This document shows positions 4,780 to 43,300 of a DNA stretch of 64,000 nucleotides, in pieces. Below the pieces are notes generated by a model. The model searched no databases. It saw nothing but the letters and a program-made list of their open reading frames with translations, and was not told where the DNA came from. This DNA is from Bryobacterales bacterium. Lineage in GTDB: Bacteria > Acidobacteriota > Terriglobia > Bryobacterales > Bryobacteraceae. The stretch spans positions 1 to 64,000 of the forward strand of contig JAOAPR010000041.1 of assembly GCA_025463005.1 (NCBI GenBank), read 5' to 3'. Each line of letters begins with the position of its first letter. The stretch's first letter is position 1. A program made the translations under genes and the position numbers.

Positions 4780-5673
4780 ATGGAACGAAAAAAAGCGTCC
4801 GACTACCCGCAGGAATTGCTCAACCTCTTTGACAAATACGTTCACGGCGATATCGACCGCCGCGCCTTTCTGGATGGAGCCCAAAAGTTCGCCGTAGGCG
4901 GCCTGACGGCTACTGCGATCTGGGAAAGCCTCCGCCCCAATTACGCCTGGGCGCAGCAGGTCCCCAAAGACGACAAGCGCATCAAAGCGGAGTACGTCAC
5001 GGTCCCCTCGCCGCAGGGCAATGGCAGCATTAAGGGCTACCTGGTTCGTCCCGCCAACGCGACCGGAAAACTTCCTGGAGTGCTGGTGGTCCACGAGAAC
5101 CGCGGCCTGAATCCTTACATCGAGGACGTGGCTCGCCGTTTAGGCGCGGCGAATTTCATGGCATTTGCTCCGGACGGTCTCACCAGCGTGGGCGGCTATC
5201 CGGGCGATGAAGAAAAAGGCGCAGCGAACTTCCGAACGGTGGACGGGCAGAAAATGGGTGAGGATTTTCACGCCTCCGCTCGCTGGCTTAAGGCGCGTTC
5301 CGATTGCACGGGCAAGGTTGGCGCGGTCGGCTTCTGCTTCGGTGGCGGAGTCGTCAACACCCTGGCGGTGAAGATGGGGGCGGATCTGGCCGCAGGAGTT
5401 CCGTTCTACGGCGCGCAGCCCAACGCCACCGACGCAGCCAAGATCAAGGCTCCTCTGCTGCTCAACTATGCCGCCATGGACGACCGCATCGATGCCGGAA
5501 TACCAGCCTATGAGGCGGCGTTGAAAGGCGCGGGCGTGACGTACACCGTCTATATCTACCCGGGCACCCAACACGGGTTTCACAACGATACGACGCCGCG
5601 TTACGACAAGGCCGCCGCGGAGCTCGCGTGGCAGCGTACGCTCGACCACTTCAATAAGTACCTGCGAGGGTAG
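4780..5673 (+). CDS. Secreted dienelactone hydrolase-family protein
   Basis: The 297-residue protein begins with a cytosolic stretch and a twin-arginine segment (DRRAFL, about 27-32) followed by a hydrophobic run ending near NYAWAQQ, so Tat export is likely. The alpha/beta-hydrolase domain has the Cys nucleophile elbow GFCFGGG (about 184-190), the acid in MDDRID (about 232-237) and the His in TQHGFHND (about 262-269). These form the Cys-Asp-His triad of dienelactone hydrolases. The substrate is unlikely to be a dienelactone itself in this YghX-like branch. A GAAAGGA ribosome site lies upstream. It is convergent with the LuxR-type regulator gene. Confidence 0.85.
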   Translation: MERKKASDYPQELLNLFDKYVHGDIDRRAFLDGAQKFAVGGLTATAIWESLRPNYAWAQQVPKDDKRIKAEYVTVPSPQGNGSIKGYLVRPANATGKLPGVLVVHENRGLNPYIEDVARRLGAANFMAFAPDGLTSVGGYPGDEEKGAANFRTVDGQKMGEDFHASARWLKARSDCTGKVGAVGFCFGGGVVNTLAVKMGADLAAGVPFYGAQPNATDAAKIKAPLLLNYAAMDDRIDAGIPAYEAALKGAGVTYTVYIYPGTQHGFHNDTTPRYDKAAAELAWQRTLDHFNKYLRG

Positions 5674-5684
5674 CGCCCGCCAGA

Positions 5685-6173
5685 TCAAATCTTAATGAGG
5701 CCGAGACGAATTCCTCGCGTCACAGCCTCCGTGCGTGTGCCTGCGTTCAATTTCGCCAGGATCGAATTGACGTGAAACTTCGCAGTGTGATCGGAAATCG
5801 ACAACCGATGCGCGATCATCTTGTTGCTCAATCCTTCCGCGAGCATCTCCAACACGTCCATTTCGCGTGGAGTGAGTGCTTCAGCGATCTCCCGAACGGG
5901 CTCATGTCCCGCTAGGTGGGGGAGAAACGCCATGCCCTCTTCGGCGGGCATCACCACTAGACCCGCCGCGGCGGCATGTACGGCCGCTACGACCTGGGCC
6001 GGGCTAATGTCCTGCGACTCGGTTCCCCGCGCGCCGGAGCGCGGGCTTTCCCCGACCACCACGTCCGCTTCTGAAGCATCGTGAACGATTTCAATGTCCG
6101 GATCCGCCGCAAGCAGCGATTCCAGGCCGCTGCGGGTGATCGCAGATCCGGCATCGATGTAAACGCGGATCAA
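5685..6173 (-). CDS. LuxR/NarL-type regulator with degenerate receiver
   Basis: The 162-residue protein ends in a clear GerE/LuxR helix-turn-helix (about 98-160: LTPREMDVLEMLAEGLSNKMIAHRLSIS...KFHVNSILAKL). The N-terminal part keeps the start of a receiver domain (VYIDAGSAITRSGLESLLAADPDIEIV) but is shortened to about 85 residues. It lacks the usual acidic pocket and phospho-acceptor Asp (the expected site reads ADVVVGE). Phosphorylation control is therefore unlikely. Start is TTG 6171-6173, overlapping the TGA of the upstream protease gene (TTGA), which supports translational coupling as the last gene of a three-gene operon. Confidence 0.8.
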   Translation of the reverse strand: MIRVYIDAGSAITRSGLESLLAADPDIEIVHDASEADVVVGESPRSGARGTESQDISPAQVVAAVHAAAAGLVVMPAEEGMAFLPHLAGHEPVREIAEALTPREMDVLEMLAEGLSNKMIAHRLSISDHTAKFHVNSILAKLNAGTRTEAVTRGIRLGLIKI

Positions 6174-7024
6174 GCCGCCTCCTGCCGCGGCCCCGGCACC
6201 ACGACAGAAACCTCGCGCTCGATAGAACGATTGCCACGTCGGAATCGGACTTTCATCACCGACCCGGCAGCGTCCTCGATCGCTTCGCTCAAATCATCGG
6301 TCGATTCGAAGCGTCTCCCGTTGGCGCCCAACAGCAGATCCCCGGTCCGCAGCGAAGCTCGCTCGGCCGCGCTGTTCGGATTCACCTGCAAGAGCATCAA
6401 ACCCGTGTTCGCCACGGGCCGTACGACGATGCCAATGGTGGGCCGGCTCCCCCGCTCGAGAAAACGAACCACCAGTTCGCTGGGAATCGCAAGTGCGAGA
6501 CCGCCTGAGACGACCATCGTGTTTACCCCAATAACGCGCCCTCCCGCATCCGCCAGCGGACCTCCCGAATTCCCGGGGGCGAGCCGAATCGCCGCATGGA
6601 CCCAGCGCCTCCGGCCCAGCCCGCGCATCGGACCCGCTCCGTGAACCACGCCGGTGGTCAGCGCCCCGACAAATCCCAGCGGATTTCCGATCGCAACGGC
6701 CAGCTCGCCGGTACGAAGTGACGAAGATCCCCGCCATGCCGCCGCAGCAAGATTGGGCGCGCGCAGCCTGAGCTTAGCCAGGTCCGCGTATCCGTCACGC
6801 GCTGTCACTTCGGCGGAAAGCGAGCGTCCGTCCCACAGCTCTACGCGAACCTGCTCGTCGCGAACACGTTCGTCCGAAACGACGTGAGCGTTGGTAATTA
6901 TCGTGCCATCGGCGTCCCAGATGATCCCCGATCCACTGCCGCGCGAATCCTGGTTCCCGCTGAGCACCTGCACGGTCGAACGGCGCAGCTTCTCCGCGAC
7001 TTCGCCGAAGGATTCCGGAAGCAT
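6170..7024 (-). CDS. HtrA/DegP-like trypsin-fold protease with PDZ domain
   Basis: The 284-residue protein has a complete chymotrypsin-fold triad: His47 (TNAHVV), Asp81 (YADLAKL) and Ser153 (APGNSGGPL). One PDZ domain follows at about 195-275 (RPTIGIVVRP...NPNSAAERASLRTGDLLLGANG). No signal peptide or membrane anchor is visible, unlike classical DegP, so it may act in the cytoplasm or be exported by an unseen route. It lies two bases downstream of an inactive paralogue and overlaps the LuxR-type regulator, so all three are probably one transcript. HtrA proteins are protein-quality-control or signalling proteases; the target is unknown. Confidence 0.85.
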   Translation of the reverse strand: MLPESFGEVAEKLRRSTVQVLSGNQDSRGSGSGIIWDADGTIITNAHVVSDERVRDEQVRVELWDGRSLSAEVTARDGYADLAKLRLRAPNLAAAAWRGSSSLRTGELAVAIGNPLGFVGALTTGVVHGAGPMRGLGRRRWVHAAIRLAPGNSGGPLADAGGRVIGVNTMVVSGGLALAIPSELVVRFLERGSRPTIGIVVRPVANTGLMLLQVNPNSAAERASLRTGDLLLGANGRRFESTDDLSEAIEDAAGSVMKVRFRRGNRSIEREVSVVVPGPRQEAA

Positions 7025-7026
7025 AC

Positions 7027-7938
7027 TTACCCTCTCCGCGGCCGCTCGGCGATTGTGATTTCCATCTCGACTGGATTTCCGCCTCGCAAAATGCGCGCCG
7101 CGATTTTCTTTCCCACCGACTCCGAACTCAGGACTTCCTGGACGTTTTCGGTCCGATGCATCGGGCGTCCGCCGAATTCGAGCAGCACGTCGCCGATCGA
7201 CATCCCAGCGCGTCCCGCCGGTCCGTCGTTTTCGACGGTAATCGCAATAAGCCCGGTGGAGCCGGCAAAATTGAGCTTGCTCCTTAGATGCTCCGGAATC
7301 GCGATCGGTTGTAGACCGACCCCCAGGTACCCTCGTGGAACCCGGCCATCCGCAAGCAGGCTTTCGGTCACACGGGCGACCGTCGACAACGGAACAGCGA
7401 ACACCGAAACCCGCGACAATGCAGGAGTTGCGACGCCCAGCAGCTTGCCCGATGCGCCCACTACCGCGCCGCCGGCTCCCGCGGGATGCAACGAAAGATC
7501 AAGCCTTACAACTTGGTCCAATCGGCCTCCGCGCCAGGTCTGAGAGGGACCGGAGATGTTGCTGATCACGCCAAACGCCGCGACGGCGCTGTCTTTCGAC
7601 CGGCCGACCGCCAGCACAACACCACCTGGAGTTATCGTCGCCGGATTCTCTTCTCTTTGGGCCACAGGAATGCCGAGGCCCTTGACTCGCAACACGGCCA
7701 GATCCGTTCCCGGATCTCGTCCCACTACTTCAGCCGGTAGATTGGAACCATCCTGCGCGGTCACGCGGATTCCTTCATCGCGGCGTAGCGTGTGATCCGC
7801 CGTGACGACGATCTCCGAGCTCCAGTGGACGCCGCTCGAGTCGAATCGCGAGCGCGCGTGAACGGCGACGATCGACTGGGCGGCCTGTTCCACGGTCGAA
7901 GCGATTTGTTCGGAAAGAGCGATCAATGAATTTGCCAA
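7027..7938 (-). CDS. HtrA-like pseudoprotease with PDZ domain
   Basis: The 303-residue protein has the HtrA layout (trypsin-like fold about 15-195, PDZ about 200-298 with RGYLGVGLQPI and GRAGMSIGDVLLEFGGRP). His49 (TADHT) and Asp79 (GTDLAVL) remain, but the GNSGGP nucleophile loop reads HPAGAGGAV at 151-159, placing Ala155 where Ser should be. It should fold but not cleave. The start is TTG 7936-7938 with AGGGAG nine bases upstream. It is first in an operon with the active protease. A scaffold or decoy role towards its neighbour is inferred, not shown. Confidence 0.8.
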   Translation of the reverse strand: MANSLIALSEQIASTVEQAAQSIVAVHARSRFDSSGVHWSSEIVVTADHTLRRDEGIRVTAQDGSNLPAEVVGRDPGTDLAVLRVKGLGIPVAQREENPATITPGGVVLAVGRSKDSAVAAFGVISNISGPSQTWRGGRLDQVVRLDLSLHPAGAGGAVVGASGKLLGVATPALSRVSVFAVPLSTVARVTESLLADGRVPRGYLGVGLQPIAIPEHLRSKLNFAGSTGLIAITVENDGPAGRAGMSIGDVLLEFGGRPMHRTENVQEVLSSESVGKKIAARILRGGNPVEMEITIAERPRRG

Positions 7939-7995
7939 CGTTATTTCTCCCTGTCATCAGCATGCGCCCGGGGAGCTCCCTTGCACACCGGATGA

Positions 7996-8018
7996 TCGGG
8001 CAGTTTCCACCTGCCCGA
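7996..8018. promoter_or_regulatory. Inverted repeat in divergent promoter region
   Basis: TCGGGCAG (7996-8003), a 7-base spacer, and CTGCCCGA (8011-8018) are exact complements; a further GGGCAGG half-site follows at 8021-8027. The repeat lies between the divergent pseudoprotease operon and the double hydrolase gene. It covers the -35 region of the hydrolase promoter (its -10 TAATAT is at 8029-8034). It looks like an operator; a candidate binder is the LuxR-type regulator at the end of the divergent operon (inference). Confidence 0.5.
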
Positions 8019-8028
8019 CCGGGCAGGG

Positions 8029-8040: not shown

Positions 8041-9825
8041 GTGCAGCAGAAGCTCACTCGTCGTGAAATGGGCGCTCTGATGACGGGAGCGTTAGCCGCG
8101 TCCATGCTGGATGCGCAGACTCCCGAGCCGGTGCTCGATATCGCCGAATGGTCGTACCACTGGTACGGCGTCGAGCATGCGCTGCTCGCCCGCGGCACGG
8201 TCTGCAACGGGATGCAGATGTATGTCGAGCACTGGATCCCGGCTCAGGTGCGCCACCCCTACCCGGTCGTGCTGATTCATGGCGGCTTCGGTCAAGGCTC
8301 GGACTGGTTCAGCACGCCCGACGGCCGCCGCGGCTGGGCCACGCTGTTCCTGGAGCAGGGCTACAAGGTTTACGTGCTCGATCGGCCGGGCCAGGGTCGA
8401 AACCCGTATCAACCGTTCGTTCATGGCGCGTTTGCCGCGCAGGCCCCGACGTTCGAAGCGAATCCGCAGACGGTGGCTTCGATGAATCAGCCGATGCCCA
8501 ACAACGCGCAGACCCAGAGTGTCTGGCGATCGCGCGGCGCAATGCTGCTCGACGACATCGGTCCCTCGATCCTGGTCACCGATGGCGACGGCTCGGTGTT
8601 CGCAACAGTGACTGCGGAGGAGCGGCCGAAGCTGGTGAAAGGCATTGTCTCCGTAAATCCTCCCGCCAATGCACGACAGGCCGTTGAGAAGCTCGCGGGT
8701 ATTCCTTTCGAGGCGTTTCCCAGCGTGAACAATCTCACATCTGTTTTAGCTTGGCTGGATCGCACGATCGTTTCGGGACCAGTCGTGGCGGCACCCGATC
8801 CTCATCCCAACCGCGAATCCACCTCCCTCAAACTGGCCGATCAGGGTTGTTTCTGGGTGGGCGTCCGACGGAAGCAAATGCCTTACGGGACAATTCCACA
8901 GGGGCAGATGTTCGTGCAATACATGATCCCGGCCGAAAAGCGCCACGCGCTGCCCGTCGTGATGGTCCACGGGGGCGGCGGACAGGGCACGCACATGATG
9001 GGCATCGGCGGACGACCCGGCTGGGTGCATTACTTCGTCCAGGCCGGCTACAGCGTCTATTGGGTGGATCGCCCCAGTTACGGCCGGTCGCCGTATCATC
9101 CCGATGCGCTCGGTCCCAGCCACTTGCCCAACGTCCCGGCTTACGAAGGGCTCATCGGCAGCACCGCAGTCTTCAACACCGCGCAATGGCCCGGACCCGG
9201 CGGCATGAACGATCCTCTGATCGATCAGTTCATGGCCTGCGAACAGGGCAACGTGAGCGACGAAGCGTTTCACAGCGACCTGGTCTGGCCGGGCGGCGCC
9301 GAGCTGCTCGACCGCATCGGCCCGAGCATCCTCTTTGTCCATGCGTTCGGCGGATTCTTCGCGTGGGGCGTAGCCGACCGCCGTCCGAACCTGGTGAAGG
9401 CCATCGTCTGCATGGAGATCAACGGCAATCCTTTTGCCGCGCAGCTTCGCTGGGGATTGACCGCGAGCCCGATGACATATGAGCCACCTGTTTCTGATGT
9501 GGCGCAGTTTAGTTTACGAGACCAGACCGCTCCGCCCGATTCGCCGCGTCCGGTGGTTTCGCCGTTCAAATTGCAGGCCGAGCCCGTGCACAAGTGGAAA
9601 AACCTGCAAGGCATCCCGATTAGCTGGGTGACCAGCGAATTCGGCGGCGGCGGATCGCCCGTTTCGAACGTAGCTTTCTTAAAGCAGGTGGGCTGCACCG
9701 CCGAAATGCTGCGGCTGCGCGACTACGGTATCCATGGCAATGGCAACCTGATGCTGCTGGAGAAGAATAACCACGAGGTGTTCGCCGTCATTCGCGACTG
9801 GCTCGACAAGAAAGTGCCGGGTTAG
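8041..9825 (+). CDS. Tat-exported tandem alpha/beta-hydrolase, catalytic residues lost
   Basis: The 594-residue protein has a twin-arginine signal (LTRREMGALMTGALAASML) and two consecutive alpha/beta-hydrolase domains (about 30-265 and 280-594). Each has the oxyanion-side HGG (LIHGGFGQGSDW; MVHGGGGQGTHM) and VLDRPGQGRNPY / WVDRPSYGRSPY strands. In related single-domain enzymes, as I recall them, the nucleophile motif is HSQGG and the His lies in GNGH. Here domain 1 reads DGDGS (about 181-185), domain 2 HAFGG (about 433-437), and the C-terminal motif is GNGN (about 566-569). Both Ser and the His appear replaced. It may be a binding protein. GTG start, leaderless; ppa follows 30 bases later. 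Confidence 0.78.
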   Translation: MQQKLTRREMGALMTGALAASMLDAQTPEPVLDIAEWSYHWYGVEHALLARGTVCNGMQMYVEHWIPAQVRHPYPVVLIHGGFGQGSDWFSTPDGRRGWATLFLEQGYKVYVLDRPGQGRNPYQPFVHGAFAAQAPTFEANPQTVASMNQPMPNNAQTQSVWRSRGAMLLDDIGPSILVTDGDGSVFATVTAEERPKLVKGIVSVNPPANARQAVEKLAGIPFEAFPSVNNLTSVLAWLDRTIVSGPVVAAPDPHPNRESTSLKLADQGCFWVGVRRKQMPYGTIPQGQMFVQYMIPAEKRHALPVVMVHGGGGQGTHMMGIGGRPGWVHYFVQAGYSVYWVDRPSYGRSPYHPDALGPSHLPNVPAYEGLIGSTAVFNTAQWPGPGGMNDPLIDQFMACEQGNVSDEAFHSDLVWPGGAELLDRIGPSILFVHAFGGFFAWGVADRRPNLVKAIVCMEINGNPFAAQLRWGLTASPMTYEPPVSDVAQFSLRDQTAPPDSPRPVVSPFKLQAEPVHKWKNLQGIPISWVTSEFGGGGSPVSNVAFLKQVGCTAEMLRLRDYGIHGNGNLMLLEKNNHEVFAVIRDWLDKKVPG

Positions 9826-42434: not shown

Positions 42435-43300
42435 CGTTGGAGAATCGGTGTGTAGGCGTCGATGCGGCGGTCGCGCAGGAAGGGCCAATTGCGGCGGACT
42501 TCTTCCATGCGGTGCGGATCGATTTCGGCGATCAGGATTTCCTCCCGGTCGCAAGGAGCCTGTGCGATGACCTGCCCGAACGGGTCGGCGACAAACGAGG
42601 AGCCCCAAAACTCGAGTCCATGGTCAGGCGGCCCTTCGTAGCCGACGCGATTGACAGCGGCAACGTAGATCCCATTCGCGATGGCGTGCGCGCGCTGGAT
42701 CGTGCGCCACGCATCCAGTTGAGCGGCTCCGTATTGGGCTTTCTCAGACGGATGCCAGCCGATGGCGGTGGGGTACACCAGAATATCCGCGCCGGAAAGG
42801 GCGGCGATGCGCGCGCCTTCCGGATACCACTGATCCCAGCAGACCAAAACTCCCAGGCGCCCGTAAGGTGTGGCGATGCTGCTGAAGCCCAGATCGCCCG
42901 GCGTGAAATAGAATTTCTCAAAGTACAGAGGATCGTCCGGAATATGCATTTTCCGGTACAATCCGGCGATTTCCCCATCGGCGGAGATCACCGCGGCAGT
43001 GTTGTGGTAGAGCCCCGCTGCGCGGCGCTCGAACAAAGAGGCCACGATCACAACCTTCAGCTCGCGCGCGAGCTTGCCCAACGTCTGCGTGGAGGGTCCG
43101 GGAATGGATTCGGCGAGCGCGAAGAGCTCGGCATTCTCCTCGCGGCAAAAATACTGTGACCGGAACAGCTCCTGGAGGCAGATTACGCGCGCGCCACCGG
43201 CCGCGGCTTCGCGAATTTTCCATTCGGTCTTAGCCAGATTCTCGTTCGGATCAAGCGCGCAGCTCGTCTGCACCAGGCCGATCCGGAAAGCTTCTTGCAT
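42419..43300 (-). CDS. aguB: N-carbamoylputrescine amidohydrolase
   Basis: The 293-residue nitrilase-superfamily enzyme has the Glu-Lys-Cys triad at Glu44 (LQELF), Lys117 (YRKMHIPDDP) and Cys154 (LVCWDQWYPE). RKMHIPDDPLYFEKFYF, CWDQWYPEGAR and FWGSSFVADPFG are the AguB-type signatures. It hydrolyses N-carbamoylputrescine to putrescine, CO2 and ammonia, completing the agmatine route with the overlapping aguA. Divergent from queG with a 29-base spacer. No arginine decarboxylase gene is in the window. Confidence 0.93.
   Translation of the reverse strand: MQEAFRIGLVQTSCALDPNENLAKTEWKIREAAAGGARVICLQELFRSQYFCREENAELFALAESIPGPSTQTLGKLARELKVVIVASLFERRAAGLYHNTAAVISADGEIAGLYRKMHIPDDPLYFEKFYFTPGDLGFSSIATPYGRLGVLVCWDQWYPEGARIAALSGADILVYPTAIGWHPSEKAQYGAAQLDAWRTIQRAHAIANGIYVAAVNRVGYEGPPDHGLEFWGSSFVADPFGQVIAQAPCDREEILIAEIDPHRMEEVRRNWPFLRDRRIDAYTPILQRWLDK

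Follow-up and report, generated by a model that had tools for sequence, protein, structure and literature searches.

The window, that is, the whole 64,000-nucleotide stretch of Bryobacterales DNA analysed here, contains an operon of three minus-strand genes that we name g1 (7027–7938), g2 (6170–7024) and g3 (5685–6173). g1 codes for a 303-amino-acid (aa) HtrA-fold protein, a trypsin-like domain followed by a PDZ domain, in which Ala155 takes the place of the catalytic serine; g2 codes for a 284-aa HtrA with the full triad H47/D81/S153, a PDZ domain and no signal peptide seen; and g3 codes for a 162-aa NarL/LuxR-type DNA-binding regulator whose shortened receiver has no acidic pair. Translation starts at TTG in g1 and g3 and at ATG in g2. 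Our preferred interpretation, which we hold to be reasonably likely, is that the genes form an HtrA circuit of the cytosol that regulates itself: g3 would act on its own promoter without phosphorylation, and g1 would be its non-proteolytic partner.

Such a circuit would have at its core g1, as a cytosolic protein of the HtrA fold with a PDZ domain that can do without protease activity, the non-phosphorylatable g3, and an operator before g1; its usual output would be an active cytosolic HtrA, g2 here and other HtrA lineages elsewhere. g3 would bind either a single 7-2-7 palindrome, with its centre some 42 bases upstream of the transcription start, or this one and a second at about 65 bases, and would most likely activate both its own operon and the active HtrA. 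As the input replacing a sensor kinase, g1 would hold g3, or g3 and the HtrA, through PDZ and protease-fold contacts, depending on how much unfolded or C-terminally exposed protein is present. Clearance of such protein by the active HtrA would close the loop. The most specific version of the scheme is put forward tentatively, as possible rather than probable: a cytosolic HtrA-fold pseudoprotease would replace the sensor kinase, read protein-damage load with its PDZ and protease-fold surface and directly control a phosphorylation-dead regulator, which would drive its own operon and a recruited HtrA via a shared 7-2-7 operator.

Linkage of the three genes and their distribution

Profiles of the three proteins were used to score the best candidates of each of 150 genomes of the window's family, with cut-offs of 1e-70 for g1, 1e-62 for g2 and 1e-40 for g3. 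Matches were obtained in 51, 50 and 55 genomes, respectively (57 with any of the three), with one match each at these cut-offs, and all three genes were present in 46 of the 150. Pairwise Fisher tests, in which kinship between genomes is ignored, gave p values of 5e-33 (g1–g2), 3e-30 (g1–g3) and 5e-29 (g2–g3). Conserved co-occurrence, which a preliminary description of this DNA had named as the check on its reading, is thus borne out, with p below 1e-28 for every pair; the linkage is kept and the operon is real. In a search of the order, the g1 profile split the orthologues (at least 261 bits, the lowest being a truncated one) from other HtrAs (207 bits at most).

The spacing of the genes is equally constant. 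The gap between g1 and g2 lies between -4 and +5 in 56 of 60 loci, and g2 and g3 overlap by 4 bases in 49 of 58, the window's g3 overlapping the g2 stop by TTGA. Coordinates, gaps and named residues (g1 H49/D79/A155; g2 H47/D81/S153) are as the preliminary description gave them. Its TTG starts at both ends of the operon are present in the window, but that of g1 is local, the g1 frames of relatives mostly beginning with ATG (starts chosen by script). Several exceptions to the full set lie at contig ends (genomes G102, G112, G129, G067 and G050), and three genomes (G006, G040 and G122) hold g1 and g3 without g2, the g1 of G122 being near a contig end. In G087 (locus L091 / L213, G087:C224), g1 and g2 are decayed and g3 is apparently whole. 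Within the few kilobases around each locus, no neighbouring gene family was common to more than 8 of the 85 loci with g1.

Beyond the family, 396 genomes of the phylum were searched, 122 of which gave a match at 1e-50, mostly to other HtrAs as judged by frame length. Twenty stretches from other families were picked for high score among the matches listed; since this sample is non-random and drawn from those matches, we claim no frequency outside the family. g1 adjoins g3 in 13 of these 20 high-scoring stretches, the other seven containing a short HtrA only. Eight of the 13 loci also hold an active HtrA, here termed H2, in variable gene order: g3-g1-H2 (L141, L142), g1-g3-H2 (L144, L154) or H2 tail to tail with g1-g3 (L145, L146, L147, L152). 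g1 forms one clade across the phylum sample (99*) and, to judge from these sequences, the module occurs in many families of the phylum.

A predicted operator before g1

The regions 5' of g1 share the word CCTGCCCG, which is found in 25 of 70 family loci, compared with 5–7 loci for the top 8-mer in the shuffles shown. Training on the family loci, with other families excluded, gave a palindromic weight matrix with the consensus CCTGGCCGATCGGCCAGG, a 7-2-7 layout and weak flanking columns. Of the 70 family loci, 66 have a site above the shuffled 95% level, 65 of these at the usual distance; outside the family the figure is 12 of 13, all 12 at that distance. No such site occurs in family loci L042, L045, L053 and L077 or in L142. 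At a threshold of at least 14.5 bits, sites were found in 48/70 family, 7/13 other-family and 0/273 control upstream regions, the latter taken from real neighbouring genes; at 6.4 bits or more, the corresponding counts were 66/70, 12/13 and 20/273. Altogether, 75 places in 680 kilobases (kb) of loci reached 14.5 bits: 67 before g1, three before H2 (L145, L146 and L152) and five elsewhere. In these three loci the active HtrA is transcribed separately and the operator lies 42/43 bases before it; the H2 of L147 has a 13.8-bit site at the same place. No operator was seen before H2 genes situated within the operon (L141, L142, L144, L154) or alone (L148–L150, L153, L156–L158).

In the window, the matrix scan placed the two best sites of the 64 kb directly upstream of g1. 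The predicted distal operator (8009–8028, minus strand) has the window's top score, 18.4 bits, and its core (8010–8027) is the perfect palindrome CCTGCCCG-GT-CGGGCAGG. The predicted proximal operator, AACTGCCCGATCATCCGGTG (7986–8005, minus strand), lies 23 bases from the distal one and ranks second with 15.7 bits. A search with the plain pattern, allowing three mismatches, returned two places in the window versus 1.2 expected by chance, the perfect one being 8010–8027. A palindrome match with two mismatches at 42571–42588 falls inside long reading frames and is probably due to chance. Sites recognised by NarL are 7-2-7 inverted repeats, like the module operator. This 7-2-7 palindrome before g1, predicted from sequence and newly described here, would be bound by g3, and it suggests control by DNA binding at g3's own promoter.

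The position of the operator is likewise fixed. Measured from the start codon, site centres fall into groups at -42/-43, about -57, -66/-67 and about -82, and wherever a locus has two sites of at least 8 bits they are 23 or 24 bases apart (26/26). A Shine-Dalgarno-like word is present in only one of 28 upstream regions with a site centre at -41 to -46 versus 25 of 34 with a centre at -53 to -61. Promoter alignment columns 41, 42 and 46 show C, A and T at frequencies of 0.59, 0.68 and 0.67, respectively, defining a CATNCT-like element at constant distance from the operator. Considering both the Shine-Dalgarno distribution and the constant distance of this element, the transcription start appears to keep a set distance of about 42 bases from the centre of the operator, which suggests that in the -42/-43 group transcription starts on the start codon itself. 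The window has a putative -10 element, CATGCT (7959–7964, minus strand), assigned by position, that is, by its usual distance from the proximal operator and by moderately conserved alignment columns, and a Shine-Dalgarno-like AGGGAG (7947–7952, minus strand), recognised by sequence, 8 bases 5' of the g1 TTG start.

Alternatively, g3 could be a repressor: the operator could overlap the -35 region, so that the promoter is blocked until g1 or a ligand removes g3, and the proximal site does lie where a -35 element would be. However, a site centred about 42 bases before the presumed start, accompanied by another 23 or 24 bases upstream of it, has the position typical of class II activators, and no good -35 element is visible in the upstream sequences inspected. 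We consider repression unlikely and continue with g3 as the probable activator of its own operon.

In none of the five genomes of the genus that were scanned was the degenerate palindrome (up to two mismatches) enriched, and in G139 the operon's own site was the only one-mismatch match among the matches listed. Twelve off-operon matches, examined among those listed, all lie within stop-to-stop frames of at least 150 codons and none just before a gene. No wider regulon was seen in these searches, which fits a local circuit but is no proof of one.

Loss of catalysis in g1 and exchange of the active HtrA

Pfam recognised Trypsin_2 (1e-19) followed by PDZ_2 (8.7e-12) in g1 and Trypsin_2 plus PDZ (1.3e-28) in g2, and comparison of g1 with known structures gave DegP/DegQ matches down to 4e-28. 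Both proteins score under the cut-off of every NCBIfam HtrA model among those listed. Single-sequence AlphaFold models were uninformative, with a mean predicted local distance difference test score (pLDDT) of 34 for g1 and 43 for g3.

The catalytic state of g1 varies between loci. Among 83 proteins (three incomplete frames of L091 and L092 were dropped), the H-D-S triad is intact in 43 and broken in 40, and the intact triad is accompanied by the oxyanion glycine in 29. The triad is intact in 38 of 70 family proteins and in five of 13 from other families; all three residues are changed in L151, L154 and L155. The preliminary description had staked its reading on the serine being absent from close relatives of g1 as well, and this part has to be given up: serine is present in 44 of the 70 family proteins, and L162, of the same genus as the window, reads H-D-S. 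A g1 tree, built by a quick method after masking of the catalytic residues, requires at least 14 switches between intact and broken triads; counted residue by residue, the changes number 15 for Ser, 6 for His and 4 for Asp. Since the root was not inferred, the change count does not separate losses from gains.

Proteins with a broken triad are nevertheless maintained. Ratios of non-synonymous to synonymous substitution rates (dN/dS) were estimated by the pairwise Nei-Gojobori method in 19 comparisons from eight locus pairs. Dead g1 genes gave 0.124, 0.143 and 0.110 in the window's clade, 0.056 for L052/L054, 0.089 for L060/L061 (where the synonymous divergence, dS, of 2.1 is near saturation), 0.195 for L046/L050 and 0.034 for L176/L177, a pair without g2. 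For comparison, the intact g1 pair L076/L078 gave 0.112 and g2 pairs 0.07–0.23. By this measure dead g1 is still under purifying selection, also in the pair without g2, and the range of 0.03–0.14 in six catalytically broken pairs, with 0.195 in the seventh, fits the non-proteolytic role that had been suggested for g1. In addition, R176 is kept in 99% of 82 g1 proteins, above every triad residue; H2 has Gln at this position and g2 usually a gap. The top 19-residue hydropathy within the first 70 residues was 1.54 across 86 g1 frames, so that by hydropathy alone no export signal or membrane anchor is apparent and g1 would be cytosolic.

g2 behaves differently. Its triad and oxyanion glycine are intact in 60 of 63 frames, the three others being a fragment (L077) and, in L160, two pieces of a single copy divided by a frameshift, and the H2 triad is intact in 16 of 17 proteins, the remaining one reading N. 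From the complete triad and oxyanion glycine, g2 is predicted to be an active protease. The gene itself is nevertheless missing between g1 and g3 in eight uncut family loci (L042, L080, L161, L162, L174, L176, L177 and L178). A g2-like gene lies elsewhere in the genome of L178 (321 bits) and, more weakly, of L174 (220 bits); in the other six genomes, three of which are only 79–85% complete, no match rose above 209 bits, a score that other HtrAs also reach. In L161, from the window's own genus and sharing the window's flanking hydrolase genes, g1 and g3 are 12 bases apart. In L160, of the same genus, g2 is split over two reading frames, with g1 and g3 whole. In L176 and L177 the g2 slot is taken by a 199-base stretch that resembles a short open frame, joined to each neighbour by a start/stop-codon overlap; it may be what is left of g2. 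On an HtrA tree, the active partners fall into separate lineages: g2 (100*), the L141/L142 partners (99*), and the L144–L154 partners within a wider group of short HtrAs. Since dead g1 is under purifying selection also in a pair without g2, g1 and g3 seem to be the lasting core of the module, with an exchangeable active HtrA. The proposal that the dead paralogue acts on the active one does not describe that core, given the eight loci without g2 and the six among them whose genomes gave no g2-like match above 209 bits.

That proposal does have a precedent. In magnetotactic bacteria, the dead HtrA-fold protein MamO activates MamE non-catalytically, and similar pseudoproteases evolved independently in three taxa (PMC4794232). 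g1 could likewise act on the active HtrA, by hetero-oligomerization, activation or substrate presentation, with g3 merely the operon's regulator. In both systems active and catalytically dead HtrA-fold proteins are encoded together, side by side in most family loci here, and the dead forms arose repeatedly and keep, or in our case would keep, a non-catalytic role (PMC4794232). However, MamO carries a transporter-like domain and its gene belongs to the magnetosome gene island, and the part consulted mentions no such regulator or operator (PMC4794232), whereas g1 is short, has no visible signal peptide and persists without an active partner. A dedicated hetero-oligomer partner would not be expected to come from different HtrA lineages. 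Eight uncut family loci also have g1 and g3 without g2, and in one such pair, L176/L177, purifying selection on g1 is strong (0.034). We regard this explanation as rather improbable and retain the circuit in which g1 acts on g3.

The layout of g1 and g2, a trypsin-like fold with one PDZ domain, resembles that of DegS among the Do/DegP/DegS proteases, but hydropathy reveals no export signal or membrane anchor in the module proteins, and the g1 triad is broken in 40 of 83. HtrAs of the bacterial cytosol seem little studied: among the papers listed by a search, 'cytoplasmic HtrA' occurred only in one on HTRA2/OMI in macrophages. The module would also present a protease fold whose catalysis appears to have been lost many times while the gene was kept under selection, with the active partner naturally lost in the same genus.

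A regulator predicted to lack a working receiver

The g3 profile aligns across both the receiver and the helix-turn-helix (HTH) to VraR and NarL (full-length match). The HTH was identified by Pfam as GerE (PF00196, 1.7e-19), and no Pfam receiver family was found at an expectation value (E) up to 0.01. The acidic pair of the receiver is present in none of 71 module proteins of at least 160 aa (encoded beside g1, g2 or an active HtrA) versus all nine ordinary NarL-type controls, hand-chosen from the 25 LuxR-type proteins of the window's genome; the sole positive among 73 raw rows was a bystander LuxR gene and was excluded. The phospho-acceptor position, located by a motif match that missed 10 of 73 module proteins and five of the nine controls, is D in 18, E in 10 and A in 21 of the 73, and is Glu42 in the window. 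In L143, L145, L147, L151, L152, L154 and L155, g3 is only 86–134 aa long (from chosen starts), an HTH with a short stub. With the acidic pair absent from all 71 module proteins, the view that the regulator lacks a usable phospho-acceptor appears right in effect and general. Judged by its sequence, g3 cannot be an ordinary phosphorylated regulator.

Most g3-class proteins end in a hydrophobic-x-hydrophobic tail (81 of 84, or 79 of 81 without bystanders, versus five of the genome's 25 other LuxR-type proteins). We considered this C-terminus as a module-specific PDZ ligand and rejected it: such a tail also occurs in four of the seven control proteins ranked highest by the g3 profile.

The switch originally proposed for this operon, in which the active HtrA degrades g3 and stability sets the level of the regulator, draws on the absence of the acidic pair needed for phosphorylation and on the hydrophobic C-terminus, of the kind bound by PDZ domains. 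However, proteins outside the module share that C-terminus, and g3 persists in loci that have lost the protease; we regard the switch as improbable. The intact triad in 43 of 83 g1 proteins and the decay of both g1 and g2 in G087 might indicate an ordinary stress-protease operon of two HtrAs, one degenerating and nothing special, with an orphan regulator, but this is the least probable account, because purifying selection on broken g1 is about as strong as on g2 and g1 persists in loci whose active HtrA was lost or exchanged.

For the self-regulated circuit, the nearest precedents would be MamE/MamO for the protease half (PMC4794232) and, for the regulator half, regulators with pseudo-receivers (PMC12632262). 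Like the NarL/FixJ members of the latter group, g3 combines a NarL-type HTH with a receiver remnant. Unlike them, the module has no kinase gene as a conserved neighbour, g3 being linked instead to an HtrA-fold protein, and the receiver has shrunk until it is almost absent in several families. No description of an HtrA pseudoprotease combined with a phosphorylation-dead NarL-type regulator was found in the literature searched, which misses most subscription journals. A review on pseudo-receivers states that how they are switched on and off is still a mystery (PMC12632262). In the present module, such a regulator is encoded next to a single constant partner and has a predicted operator, so that the question becomes testable with few genes.

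Several results weigh against the circuit, in addition to the possible repressor position of the operator discussed above. The hydrophobic tail of g3 provides no evidence of contact between g1 and g3, since several other NarL-type proteins of the genome have it. Internal hydropathy exceeds 1.6 in 21 of 86 g1 and 25 of 63 g2 proteins. The degenerate palindrome with up to two mismatches is rarer than its reversed control in the five genomes of the genus (54 vs 116 in the window's genome). G570 has four one-mismatch matches away from the operon, and the best match fetched from G580 lies in a gene; since the in-gene matches in these two genomes are at least as good as the operon's own, the palindrome pattern alone does not define a target. 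G146 carries g3 (L207, G146:C101) with no g1 or g2 found nearby, and the best operator site in that stretch reaches 9.1 bits, none being strong. Finally, a correlation between the absence of an active partner and a dead g1 was rejected: 11 independent pairs on the tree gave a median p of 1, with L043, L051, L077 and L168 left out for cut or broken neighbours.

On either side of the operon, the window contains genes for a dienelactone hydrolase and an alpha/beta hydrolase (flanks 4780–5673 and 8041–9825), and relatives of both adjoin the module in the same-genus loci L160 and L161.

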